Virus record (IMG/VR): IMGVR_UViG_3300005590_000060 | Coordinates: 1-34,087 of that record | Source of the DNA: a virus | Length of the DNA stretch: 34,087 nucleotides | Strand: one strand, 5' to 3' | Part shown: in pieces, positions 24,911 through 28,605 of the stretch | Layout of the letters: every line of letters begins with the position of its first letter | Position numbering within the stretch: position 1 is the stretch's first letter | Made by a program: the position numbers and the translations under genes | The notes under the pieces: generated by a model | What the model was told of the DNA's origin: nothing | The model's input: the letters and a program-made list of their open reading frames with translations, nothing else | Database searches by the model: none

Positions 24911-25239
24911 TGGAAGCCATTGACATTAATAAAATCCAACTAGAACAAGCTAGTATTGAGCGAAAGTTGGATGAACATATTTTCGAGTCTAAGATGTATC
25001 GAGAACAGAACCAGTTAATGTTTGACCGTTTACTAGAAGCACAGAAGACCAACACTGAAGCAATCACTGAGTTGACGAAAGCAACTGCCGGTATTGTTGA
25101 AGCCTATCGAGCGGGTCAGGGTGTGATTAAAGTCGGCAGTGCTTTAGGTCGATTTGCTAAATGGTTATCGGGTATTGCTATAATCGGTGTAGCATTTAAG
25201 TGGATGTGGTCACACCTCGGTGGACCACCGTTTACTTAG
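24910..25239 (+). CDS. Holin-like protein: coiled coil plus C-terminal membrane segment
   Basis: A 109-aa protein with a charged coiled-coil N-terminus (IQLEQASIERKLDEHIFESK, about 8-27), a polar middle, and one hydrophobic segment near the end (LSGIAIIGVAFKWMW, about residues 86-100). Small proteins of this type occur at the end of late operons of marine podophages and are often annotated as putative holins. A holin would permeabilise the inner membrane at lysis, but only one membrane segment is visible and no endolysin is adjacent, so this is tentative. A spanin or tail-associated coiled coil is another possibility. It ends four bases into the convergent helicase gene. Confidence 0.5.
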   Translation: MEAIDINKIQLEQASIERKLDEHIFESKMYREQNQLMFDRLLEAQKTNTEAITELTKATAGIVEAYRAGQGVIKVGSALGRFAKWLSGIAIIGVAFKWMWSHLGGPPFT

Positions 25240-27695
25240 AAGAAGTTCACTTCAAGATCATTCGTTGTAATACCGCTACGGTAACGCTGTAGCGCATTCT
25301 TCAATCCTTCCTGATCATCGGTCTTACGCTCTAAAGCATCCACTACGGCTAAATCCACAGTGTCAGCACAGATGATCCTGATGATTGATACAGGACGGTT
25401 CTGACCCTGTCGATTAATACGACCGTTCATCTGTTCATAAAGCTCTAACGACCAGTTACACCCGAACCATACTAAAATACAACCCGACTCCTGTAGACCA
25501 TCTACGCCATGTCCCATTGACGCAGGATGACCGATCATAAGTTTGATACCACCATTGTTCCACTTGTTGATGATCTTCTCTGTGTCGGCTGATTTAGCGG
25601 CTGTCATGTTAACAGGGTTGTACTTTTTAAAACGCTTCATAATACGTTCAGCGTCAGACTTGAATGAATAGCTACATAGCACCGGTGATCCACCGGCTTC
25701 TTCTAACACTTCCTCAAGTGCATCCAGCTTAGCGTCATGCAGTACTTCGAACTCAGGTGACTCACTGCTGAGATAAGGACTTCCGTTACAGTTATGAGCG
25801 ATGAATATTTCACCATTTACACCACGTACTGTGAATCTATTACGCTTACCTGCATTAATCAGGTCGTAGGTTTTCTCGATCCGACTGGTAACAACAAGTC
25901 TTCTTCTCGCCATCCGTTCCTTATACGAGCGAATAACGTCACATCCTTGAACCCATAGCGACGTGCAGCCTGTGTCACTGTCATTCGACCCAACGGTGTC
26001 GTGATGAATGTGCTGTTCCGTTTGTTGTTTGACTGTCTGTTCTGAGTTGCCCATCTGCAATTGACCACATGATAATCCCCATCGTTGTCCAATCGTTCGA
26101 TCATTAAATGACTCTGATAACCATCCTGCATGTCTTCCCAGAAACGACTGAATGAATCGTACCATTCGTCGCACACCTGTATCCCGCGACCACCGTAGTT
26201 CGGGTAATCCTTGTCCTTCGGGTTGCGACATCGAGAACGCATGTTTATCCAGATGGTGTATTCCCTCGTAGGACTGCCATCCTTCTTTCGTGACATTCCG
26301 TGCGAACCCGTCACACTGATTATTGTCTCCCCGTGTCGGCAACCACAGCTTTTGACACCAGGTCTTCGGGGATTGCGTAAGTTCTGACCAATTGCTTTGT
26401 ACTCTTTTCCACAAACGCAGCGTACAAGCCACATTGCTCTCTTTCGCTTTCCTGTTGTGGAACCCGCTCTCTCCAAAACCGTCAGGTAGCCGAACACTTG
26501 TCCTGTTAAATCCTTCGCTGGCATCGCCATTTAAAACCTCACAAGCTTCTTTCCAACCTGAATCAGTCAACACCTTATGATCCGGTGTCATCCATACGCC
26601 GTCTAATTCTACTACGGTCTTACGGCCTTGGAAAGCTAAACTGTAGACGTTTACCCACTCGATACCGTCCCAGACCTTATCGCCTTTTTGAAACTGCTCT
26701 ATAGGTTTCCACCCTGAGTCAGTTAGAACTTCAGTACCTTCTGCTAAACAGAATTGGAGGCATTTATTAGATACCGCTGATCGACTGAATACTTCAATCT
26801 CAGCGCCGCTATCTAACTCAGCGAACATATCCTTCTCAACTTCGTCATACGCTTTACGTGCTTTGATCGGTAAATCTACCAGTAGGTTTGTCACTTTACA
26901 GTCGGGTAGATCGAGGTAATCATTAGCGTCCATCTTCTTAGTGATGTCGCTGATCTTTTCTTCAATAAATTGCTTACCCAGTTCAGTCGGTGTGTACTTC
27001 CACCCTGAATAATCTGACATGAAGTAACTGTCTTTAAAGTGTGTGATGAATTCACCGAGGCGTTCACCGCCATCTACTGCGAGGTATTGACCATGTAGAT
27101 CAAGATAACCGTTGCTGGCGGGTGTACCTGTCAGGCCAGTGCGGTACTTGAAATGTGGAATGATCTTACGCCAACCGGTGATCTTGATTTTATGTTCAGT
27201 ACCCCATTTGTCTTTACGGTCACGGGTACCACCTTTCATGCGTTTGGTGGTACTGTTCTTCAACTTCGACACTTCATCATATACAACCATGTCGAACGGG
27301 AACGGTTTACCTTGACTGATGTAGTAATGATCCAGTTGCTCTGCAAGCCAATTTAAACCTTCATAATTGACCAGGAAGATGTCAGCATCTGCGAACAAAG
27401 CACGAGTGCGTTTATCTTTATTCCCGTGAAGGATACTAAAGCGTAGATGCTTCGAGTGCTCCCATTTCTTAGCTTCACGCGCCCACACCGCTTGAATAAC
27501 TCGTAGTGGACCACATATCAATGTCTTCTTTACAGTACCTGATCTCATTCGATCTACAATTGAAGTGAGCGTTATCGCTGTTTTTCCAAGCCCCATACCA
27601 AGCCACAACATTGAATCATCGTATTGCAGTTGATGCATGACGCATTCTTTTTGGTATTCATGAAGCTGCCCCGGTGTTAATAATTGCTTTGTCAT
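25236..27695 (-). CDS. SNF2/DEAD-type helicase interrupted by an intein
   Basis: The 819-aa precursor contains a superfamily 2 (SNF2-like) helicase of about 499 aa after splicing. Extein motifs: Walker A GMGLGKTA (33-40), motif II in VVYDEVSKLKN (137-147), TGLTGTPASNG (186-196), then in the C-terminal lobe IGHPASMGHGVDGLQ (721-735) and the arginine-finger motif QMNGRINRQGQ (755-765). Between LQF (313-315) and CNGSPYL (from 636) lies a 320-residue intein. Such helicases accompany phage VRR-NUC nucleases and act in replication or recombination. The ATG overlaps the HNH/AP2 gene stop (ATGA). The 3' end overlaps the convergent holin-like gene by four bases. Activity presumably depends on splicing, since the intein separates the two helicase lobes. 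Confidence 0.9.
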   Translation of the reverse strand: MTKQLLTPGQLHEYQKECVMHQLQYDDSMLWLGMGLGKTAITLTSIVDRMRSGTVKKTLICGPLRVIQAVWAREAKKWEHSKHLRFSILHGNKDKRTRALFADADIFLVNYEGLNWLAEQLDHYYISQGKPFPFDMVVYDEVSKLKNSTTKRMKGGTRDRKDKWGTEHKIKITGWRKIIPHFKYRTGLTGTPASNGYLDLHGQYLAVDGGERLGEFITHFKDSYFMSDYSGWKYTPTELGKQFIEEKISDITKKMDANDYLDLPDCKVTNLLVDLPIKARKAYDEVEKDMFAELDSGAEIEVFSRSAVSNKCLQFCLAEGTEVLTDSGWKPIEQFQKGDKVWDGIEWVNVYSLAFQGRKTVVELDGVWMTPDHKVLTDSGWKEACEVLNGDASEGFNRTSVRLPDGFGESGFHNRKAKESNVACTLRLWKRVQSNWSELTQSPKTWCQKLWLPTRGDNNQCDGFARNVTKEGWQSYEGIHHLDKHAFSMSQPEGQGLPELRWSRDTGVRRMVRFIQSFLGRHAGWLSESFNDRTIGQRWGLSCGQLQMGNSEQTVKQQTEQHIHHDTVGSNDSDTGCTSLWVQGCDVIRSYKERMARRRLVVTSRIEKTYDLINAGKRNRFTVRGVNGEIFIAHNCNGSPYLSSESPEFEVLHDAKLDALEEVLEEAGGSPVLCSYSFKSDAERIMKRFKKYNPVNMTAAKSADTEKIINKWNNGGIKLMIGHPASMGHGVDGLQESGCILVWFGCNWSLELYEQMNGRINRQGQNRPVSIIRIICADTVDLAVVDALERKTDDQEGLKNALQRYRSGITTNDLEVNFF
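25791..26750 (-). other. Intein in the helicase (residues 316-635)
   Basis: The intein starts at Cys316 in CLAEGTEVLTDSGWKPIEQF (block A). Block B is WMTPDHKVLTDSGWK, with T370 and H373. Block F is EKTYDLINAGKRNRFTV (607-623), and block G is GEIFIAHN ending His634-Asn635, followed by the +1 nucleophile Cys636. All catalytic residues needed for splicing are therefore present. The intein-specific sequence is a mini-intein split into about 73 N-terminal and 30 C-terminal residues. The roughly 220 residues between them have no recognisable domain, because that DNA encodes an HNH endonuclease in another frame. The frame nevertheless stays open throughout, as required for the C-extein to be made. 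Confidence 0.92.
25859..26530 (-). CDS. HNH homing endonuclease nested out of frame in the intein
   Basis: A complete 223-aa nuclease on the same strand as the helicase but shifted by one base relative to it. It has a Cys-rich N-terminal part (CVCG at 38-41, SCGC at 61-64), HGM...YTIWINMRSRCRNP (78-104), YGGRGIQVCDEWYDSF (112-127), and the HNH core IERLDNDGDYHVVNCRWATQ (144-163) with NRQSNN. A helix-turn-helix-like C-terminus follows (MTVTQAARRYGF, from 183). All are typical of phage HNH homing endonucleases. GAGG lies 6 bases before its ATG, inside the intein frame, so it can be translated on its own. Its TGA falls inside intein block F. It probably cuts intein-less helicase genes to spread the intein. 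Confidence 0.9.
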   Translation of the reverse strand: MAMPAKDLTGQVFGYLTVLERAGSTTGKRKRAMWLVRCVCGKEYKAIGQNLRNPRRPGVKSCGCRHGETIISVTGSHGMSRKKDGSPTREYTIWINMRSRCRNPKDKDYPNYGGRGIQVCDEWYDSFSRFWEDMQDGYQSHLMIERLDNDGDYHVVNCRWATQNRQSNNKRNSTFITTPLGRMTVTQAARRYGFKDVTLFARIRNGWREEDLLLPVGSRKPTT

Positions 27696-28249
27696 AATGG
27701 TCTAACGCTTCCGTGATTTTTATGGAAATTGTAATAATTTTCAGCAGACTTTCTTACACAGACTGCTTCAAAGAAATCACTAAACTTACCTAGATATATT
27801 TGCTTCTGTTTTACTTTAATGTAGCTTTGCCATTTACAAGATGAAGTGTTCCATCCTACCCCGGTGACACCTGATGTATTATTAGATGCAATCCGTTTAT
27901 TCACACCATTCTCAATTCGATCCGCTTCACGAAGATTACACCATCTGTTGTCAGTACCATCACCGTTAATGTGATCAACCTCAACAGGTGTTGAACCCTC
28001 CATGTGTAAAAAAACCAACCGGTGAGCTTTACATGTGGAACCTTGTATCTTAATACAGACATATGATTTACCGCGTGAACCTTTGTGAACGATACCGACG
28101 ACATTCCCTGAGTGTTTAGCATTCCAACTACAATAACTTCTGTAACTCTTAAACCACTTTAGGTCACGCTTTTTCCATGTAAGAACACCGGTGTCAGGGT
28201 TGTAGTCTAATAATTCACGAACTATGTCTTGAGTCAGTTCAACCTTCAC
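27692..28249 (-). CDS. HNH endonuclease with AP2 domain
   Basis: A free-standing 185-aa homing-type nuclease. The N-terminus (LLDYNPDTGVLTWKKRD) and the HNH_3 core VEVDHINGDGTDNRWCNLRE (89-108), with the metal-binding H93 and N101/N105, are typical. The C-terminal DNA-binding AP2 domain spans about 124-176 (NTSGVTGVGW ... YLGKFSDFFEAVC). The start is GTG 28249, with GAGGA 5 bases upstream, overlapping the VRR-NUC stop; its own stop overlaps the helicase start (ATGA). It thus sits cleanly between two genes that are usually adjacent, consistent with insertion as a selfish element. Catalytic residues appear intact. Confidence 0.9.
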   Translation of the reverse strand: MKVELTQDIVRELLDYNPDTGVLTWKKRDLKWFKSYRSYCSWNAKHSGNVVGIVHKGSRGKSYVCIKIQGSTCKAHRLVFLHMEGSTPVEVDHINGDGTDNRWCNLREADRIENGVNKRIASNNTSGVTGVGWNTSSCKWQSYIKVKQKQIYLGKFSDFFEAVCVRKSAENYYNFHKNHGSVRPL

Positions 28250-28605
28250 ACCTCAGTCCTCTTCAACTTCTCATCGAGGTTATCAAGGTGATCATATGTC
28301 AGTGCATTAGATGCTTGTAGTGCAGGCTTCACCACACCTTCAATGAATATGTGCACATCGACTGCACCATATACGGTGTGCACATTAGCACCGACATCTG
28401 TCAACCTTTCGATCTCACGTTCTTGCACTTTAGATAACTTACCGTCAATGGTCTTCACCTCAACGAACCACACGTTACCATCTACAATACAGATGCGATC
28501 AGGAACACCGTCGCGACCCGGTGACACCCACTTGCGAGTGATACCACCAATCTTCTTAAACTCTGAATCAAGTAGCTTTTCTACTTTGTTTTCGCGGACG
28601 CCCAT
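28246..28605 (-). CDS. VRR-NUC domain nuclease
   Basis: A 119-aa PD-(D/E)XK nuclease of the VRR-NUC family. The catalytic pattern is complete: GVPDRICIV with D36, FVEVKT with E49 and K51, and the following KLSKVQ with Q61. Length is normal for phage stand-alone versions. These nucleases resolve branched DNA or act with the neighbouring SNF2 helicase in phage recombination or replication; the pairing is well known by gene order, the exact substrate here is inference. The ATG at 28605 has only a weak ribosome binding site, and the gene overlaps the preceding gene by 25 bases. Confidence 0.9.
   Translation of the reverse strand: MGVRENKVEKLLDSEFKKIGGITRKWVSPGRDGVPDRICIVDGNVWFVEVKTIDGKLSKVQEREIERLTDVGANVHTVYGAVDVHIFIEGVVKPALQASNALTYDHLDNLDEKLKRTEV

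Follow-up and report, generated by a model that had tools for sequence, protein, structure and literature searches.

The helicase gene, its intein and the nested nuclease gene

The window, meaning the whole 34,087-nucleotide stretch of viral DNA that was analysed (IMG/VR record IMGVR_UViG_3300005590_000060), carries on its minus strand a helicase gene interrupted by an intein, and within the intein lies a second gene, read in another frame, for a putative homing endonuclease. The features of this locus are as follows.

25236-27695 (-): SNF2/DEAD-type helicase ORF interrupted by the intein, 819 aa (Pfam SNF2-rel_dom E 2.9e-15; phrog_62 DNA helicase E 7e-122)
26751-27695 (-): N-extein, helicase residues 1-315, alignable as far as the junction with the Vibrio phage MZH0603 helicase, which has no intein
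25791-26750 (-): intein, 320 residues, from C1 to H-N followed by C+1 (TIGR01445, Hint_2, family alignment, AF2 and Foldseek)
26538-26750 (-): N-terminal splicing region, blocks A and B (CLAEGTEVLTDSGW ... GVWMTPDHKVLTDSGW) (family alignment; pLDDT >90 for residues 1-70)
26537-26540 (-): Shine-Dalgarno (SD) sequence GAGG of the nested nuclease, read by the intein within E-V (sequence; SD analysis)
25859-26530 (-): putative nested HNH-family homing endonuclease gene, 223 aa, +1 frame, ATG start (phrog_374 HNH endonuclease E 5.8e-59)
25862-26530 (-): overlap, also read in the intein frame as a poorly conserved linker (AF2 pLDDT <50; dNN/dNS ~1 in diverged pairs)
25791-25889 (-): C-terminal splicing region, blocks F and G (YDLINAGKRNRFTVRG ... 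FIAHN) (family alignment; pLDDT >90)
25239-25790 (-): C-extein, beginning C636-N-G-S-P-Y, with the stop codon at 25236-25238 (alignment to the intein-free helicase)

The intein spans helicase residues C316-N635 (320 codons) and is followed by C636. Its motifs are C-LAEGTEVLTDSGW in block A, GVWMTPDHKVLT in block B, YDLINAGKRNRFTVRG in block F and FIAHN/C in block G. The block A nucleophile C1 was invariant in 32 aligned inteins, as were T55 and H58 of the block B T-x-x-H motif. At the C-terminal H-N, N320 was invariant and H319 nearly so, and the +1 residue in the window is Cys. AF2, run on alignments built from IMG/VR rows and one genome contig, modelled intein residues 1-70 and 290-320 with pLDDT >90 and residues 98-178 and 214-284 with pLDDT <50. 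The splicing domain of the model has a Hint fold, with the Mtu RecA intein as the top Foldseek match (2in0, E 1.4e-4). Family searches of both frames, proposed in an earlier reading made from the sequence alone, returned TIGR01445 intein_Nterm (E 0.0017, below its cut-off) and Hint_2 for the intein and phrog_374 for the nuclease. That reading had also called for helicases with and without the intein, and the helicase of Vibrio phage MZH0603 (82% identical) provided the empty site, with the exact junction KCLQF|CNGSPYLS in a conserved helicase motif. The window element is, judged by its sequence, a class-1-type intein in an SNF2-type phage helicase, for which splicing is predicted.

The HNH ORF starts 1165 nt after the start of the helicase gene, a distance equal to 1 mod 3. 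GAGG sits 6 nt ahead of its ATG (26530-26528), and its TGA (25861-25859) lies within the Leu-Ile codons of block F (YDLINAG). Coordinates and profiles thus confirmed the layout first described by the sequence-only reading, namely an intact 223-aa HNH gene with a GAGG-ATG start and a stop in block F, placed out of frame inside a helicase intein with full splicing motifs. A canonical homing-endonuclease intein carries its endonuclease in frame; here it was in the +1 frame in the window and in frame in 0 of 90 relatives. AF2 modelled the window HNH protein with a pLDDT of 90.6. Searches of this protein against Pfam and NCBIfam gave no match, Foldseek with the model found nothing significant in the PDB, and a profile search gave I-HmuI alone (E 0.017). 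The nuclease family shares the motif xDRxDNxGxYxxxNCRW (HNH alignment A6, nested and free-standing members). The first His of the canonical H-N-H triad is Arg in all listed members of both kinds, so that catalysis cannot be deduced from the motif. Separately, a free-standing HNH_3 endonuclease gene (27692-28249, minus strand) lies directly upstream of the helicase start with a 4-bp overlap, beside a VRR-NUC gene (28246-28605), and similar nuclease genes flank the polymerase in Jerseyviruses.

A family of inteins with nested HNH genes

We applied profile HMMs to 212 loci, drawn from IMG/VR, from phage records and from genome contigs, and required blocks A-B and F-G in one ORF for membership. 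This yielded 99 distinct family inteins, with the HNH gene in +1 in 44, in +2 in 46, in frame in none and absent from 9. The members were traced from few seed sequences, so the zero describes this sample and is no census, and E-values and counts ignore kinship among members. Three more +2 loci (L132, L137 and L152) have the NT region and HNH inside one long ORF. Insertion sites were found in PolA at or near motif B (mostly +2), in PolA at GGKLxEN|CxQA (+1), in SNF2-type helicases (+1) and in one terminase (+1); the inserts sit in conserved host motifs, in PolA beside motif B. Some PolA genes (L099 and L122) contain a pair of these inteins, the nuclease being in +2 in one and in +1 in the other, and L094 has one intein of each kind in separate contig units. 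The scan of genome contigs gave six loci only, one of them clearly of the dual-coded intein type, and in that search the family therefore looks phage-borne. One helicase ORF with a dual-coded intein (L012) also has, at its Walker A region (EPG|C...N|TGKT), a further intein-like insert that is in frame.

Members occur in the named phages APSE-1, APSE-2, Caulobacter GB2A, Shewanella SFCi1, Pseudomonas MR14, EBPR siphovirus 2, Vibrio 97.13, Streptococcus Javan255 and Gardnerella AB1, and Caulobacter phages RW, RLK and KcrB gave near-identical matches. A further 163 records (~160, Guernseyvirinae/Dhillonvirus) resemble the Jerseyvirus intein along 80% or more of its length, eleven of which were checked in both frames. 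Many Salmonella Jerseyviruses are without the intein, their polymerases matching at 71% coverage; in phage skrot, which was checked, the empty junction reads QIGKA|CELGLGYEG. Presence and absence thus segregate among close Jerseyvirus relatives, as a homing element would predict. In the Salmonella phage SE2 record (L215) the polymerase ORF is broken downstream of the intein, possibly by a sequencing error, and both the intein and HNH frames are intact.

Mini-inteins of the same family were found at the same sites, consistent with nuclease loss. In L144 and in the second intein of L130 (4630-5104) the nested HNH is truncated or degraded and the splicing blocks are intact, and these appear to be steps towards mini-inteins. 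At five PolA loci (L178 2774-3718, L180 2717-3712, L109 1864-2817, L120 135-1139 and L138 694-1668) the ORF of the N-half terminates, next comes a free HNH gene, and beyond it a short C-half begins anew (e.g. MLVPVYDIVNCGPRHRFVANGKLVHN|S), the three lying in different frames. From their sequences these look like naturally split inteins, and their HNHs form one clade (support 96). The HNH tree further separated +2 PolA (support 99), helicase +1 (98) and PolA-C-site +1 (77) clades. Forcing all nested HNH genes into one clade was not rejected (AU p 0.95) and even scored better, and the intein-core tree had too few columns to separate single from multiple capture.

Maintenance of two frames and of an internal start

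The sequence-only reading had put the chance of an open second frame at about 2 in 100,000, a value that we recomputed as (61/64)^225 ~2e-5. We shuffled the synonymous codons of the window HNH gene under a null that holds the HNH protein and its codon usage fixed and is therefore stricter than the equal-base estimate. None of 100,000 shuffles left the intein frame open, and the mean was 11.5 stops. T was avoided at all 61 junctions where a T-ending HNH codon would create an intein-frame stop, with T ending 46 of the 223 codons (p ~8e-7 if the junctions are independent). In the family, both frames were jointly open in 90/90 distinct inteins. The alternate frame was open in 41/41 and 18/18 nested genes, versus 1/70 and 0/70 free-standing HNH relatives, whose corresponding alternate frames hold a mean of 14.2 and 8.7 stops; synonymous shuffles predict 0.05/41 and 0.62/18 open. 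The sole free HNH gene with an open alternate frame (L051) has 65% GC and no intein. Openness persists between members that are 60-70% identical in DNA. Chance openness was rejected on the shuffle tests and on the comparison of nested with free-standing genes. Two findings had been named in advance as fatal to dual coding, a sequencing error and homologues with a broken intein frame. An error was rejected because the same layout recurs in 90 distinct inteins. Broken intein frames occurred in only two contiguous units (L091 and L125), both of whose contigs contain an ambiguous base in the affected region, and in the five split-intein-like loci.

That both frames are under selection, as had been proposed, held for the HNH protein and for the openness of the intein frame, but not for equal selection at the protein level. 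Across the overlap, diverged pairs gave dNN/dSN of 0.12-0.15 for the HNH frame, which is under strong protein-level purifying selection, and dNN/dNS of 0.94-1.47 for the intein frame. The control, the alternate frame of free-standing HNH genes, gave 1.02-1.17. Since the intein-frame ratio resembles that of a meaningless alternate frame, this frame is mainly kept stop-free across the overlap. The ratio fell to 0.63-0.65 in closer +2 pairs and the enterobacterial set, for which the closest control consists of two pairs only, so that the intein frame may be under weak constraint. In the helicase, PolA +1 and PolA +2 groups, blocks A-B and F-G vary chiefly at the third positions of intein codons, and the stretch between them at the third positions of HNH codons. 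Eleven inteins of Jerseyvirus, Kagunavirus and Dhillonvirus had zero indels across 897 nt. In these enterobacterial inteins, 92 segregating sites fell at HNH position 3 versus 42 and 19 at the others, and in the block F-G segment 13 of 14 fell at intein position 3. This pattern indicates that the constrained frame switches at the edges of the nested gene, and that the overlap encodes mainly one conserved protein and a stop-free linker, with which the low AF2 pLDDT in the overlap agrees.

Nested starts, which were selected partly for SD strength, had a mean SD of -6.5 kcal/mol versus -3.4 kcal/mol for control ATGs in the same DNA, and 65% versus 13% reached -6 kcal/mol or lower. About a third of the members have weak SDs, many of them with GTG or TTG starts. 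In many PolA members block B itself forms the SD, the residues D-H-E-V-L-T being encoded as CAC GAG GTN CTN ACN with the ATG spanning the next codons (CAC-GAG-GTN-CTN-AC|N-ATG). The Glu codon was GAG in 17 of 19 inteins with a following HNH ATG and GAA in 11 of 13 without one (Fisher p 4e-5, with members related by descent and thus not phylogenetically independent). The two GAG exceptions without an ATG, mini-intein L139 and the nuclease remnant in L130, are expected if both have lost the nuclease gene. In the window, a stop in the HNH frame immediately precedes the ATG, and the stop-to-stop ORF starts at that ATG (L001 1500-2169).

Proposed mechanism, alternatives and known systems

We consider it highly probable that the window holds a mobile intein with its homing endonuclease encoded in a distinct gene that overlaps it; from the sequence we infer that the precursor splices, that the nuclease is initiated independently, and that it cuts its target and drives homing. 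Ribosomes in the helicase frame would translate blocks A-B, pass through the HNH gene out of frame, giving a disordered linker of ~200 residues, and go on through blocks F-G; the precursor would fold its Hint domain, excise itself and join the helicase parts. Other ribosomes would initiate at the internal Shine-Dalgarno/ATG just past block B and yield the HNH nuclease as a free protein. This nuclease would cleave alleles lacking the intein at the point where it inserts, and repair would copy in the whole element. Support comes from the intact motifs, the empty site, two frames open family-wide, selection on the HNH frame and on intein-frame openness, and a start signal within intein codons. 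The earlier proposals of a separately made nuclease whose gene the intein reads through, and of a dual-coding mobile element, are supported.

Several other explanations would account for an HNH gene at this position. Programmed ribosomal frameshifting near block B could fuse the nuclease to the N-terminal part of the intein; phages do use frameshifting, and nested ORFs are often open some way upstream of their start. However, the genes have their own ATG or GTG and SD, the synonymous choice of GAG tracks the presence of the ATG, and the stop directly upstream of the window ATG disfavours a fusion there, since a shift upstream of it could not yield one. We regard frameshifting as improbable, if the least so of the alternatives. 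The open intein frame could instead be a chance leftover of a transient, decaying state after an HNH gene entered a mini-intein, and mini-inteins and HNH-degraded forms do occur (L144, L150, L190 and others). Such a leftover is very hard to reconcile with the shuffles, with 59/59 open frames in the tested set and with openness kept down to 60-70% DNA identity.

The two remaining explanations dispense with protein splicing. Out-of-frame HNH inserts in phage methylases, not inteins, have been described (Arsenault, Gosselin, Gogarten 2025; PMC11855218), and an insertion of this ShiLan type might be tolerated unspliced. ShiLan is without splicing motifs, though, whereas here the HNH is out of frame and the motifs are complete, with C1, the block B T-x-x-H, block F and HN|C conserved; the window intein models as a Hint fold like the Mtu RecA intein, and the inserts occupy a conserved helicase motif or adjoin motif B in PolA. 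We give this explanation slightly less weight again. Least probable of all is removal of the insert as RNA, the HNH gene then belonging to a self-splicing intron. HNH genes within introns are common among phages, and the Sodalis phage SO-1 record reads 'type I self-splicing intron', but no Rfam match for a conserved ribozyme was found up to E 1 across the window gene, the intein blocks are complete and conserved with intein codon phase, and the frame is open in all members, which an intron would not need.

For the mobile intein with an overlapping nuclease gene, textbook inteins provide the background: nuclease and splicing activities form one polypeptide, the endonuclease normally being an in-frame domain. 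With separate products from the same bases, nuclease dose, timing and decay could evolve independently of splicing, which is also the case in group I introns. The overlapping pair is also a rare one with clear demands, one protein being conserved and the other mainly required to be stop-free. The element is present in enterobacterial phages that can be cultured, and intein-free alleles occur there naturally, so that splicing, initiation at the internal start and homing can be tested directly. On balance we lean towards a widespread, previously unrecognised class of phage inteins, in which out-of-frame dual coding in two frames (+1 and +2) would decouple splicing from the nuclease, the nuclease ribosome binding site lies in block B codons, some lineages lose the nuclease, and a related nuclease clade is found in split inteins. 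A 2025 preprint by Gosselin reportedly concerns an intein of 'non-canonical architecture' and may describe related cases. Whether the arrangement had been described, which the sequence-only reading could not say, has a divided answer: our literature search found no out-of-frame HNH inside an intein, with bioRxiv 2025.01.02.630785 and Gorbalenya 1998 outside its scope and priority uncertain, but an overlap in APSE-1 is annotated and HNH inserts without an intein are published (PMC11855218).

The ShiLan domain and the Pacc40 gp60 insertion (PMC11855218) likewise have an HNH out of frame in an insert that is open in the frame of the host gene; no intein, intron or SD was found there, whereas here an intein has intact motifs and an embedded SD. 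In APSE-1 (NC_000935), a family member, P46 'HNH endonuclease' overlaps the P45 DNA polymerase in +1; the record annotates the overlap without mention of an intein or dual coding, and the APSE-2 record omits the HNH. The intein-containing DNA polymerases of Jerseyviruses such as Salmonella phage Ent1 belong to the same intein family. The Ent1 record labels the intein 'encoding splicing domains' only, and the nested +2-frame HNH is unannotated in the Ent1, EnJE6, SETP3 and S55 records, so that a nuclease can go unnoticed in phage polymerase inteins whose records list splicing domains alone. In Sodalis phage SO-1, gp39 (L225 2076-2834) bears the annotation of a type I self-splicing intron within the polymerase gene and is apparently the HNH, in the +2 frame, of a dual-coded family intein. 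The fractured genes that Dassa et al. reportedly described in 2009, with split inteins around a free-standing homing endonuclease, resemble our family in having a free-standing nuclease gene between intein halves, but the intein is physically split there and forms one open frame here. Canonical large inteins with an in-frame LAGLIDADG or HNH nuclease (e.g. PI-SceI) share the class-1-type motifs, the conserved sites in replication genes, a nuclease between blocks B and F and the empty sites; in the present family, by contrast, the nuclease gene occupies a different frame and has a start and a stop of its own, and the in-frame product is a poorly conserved linker.
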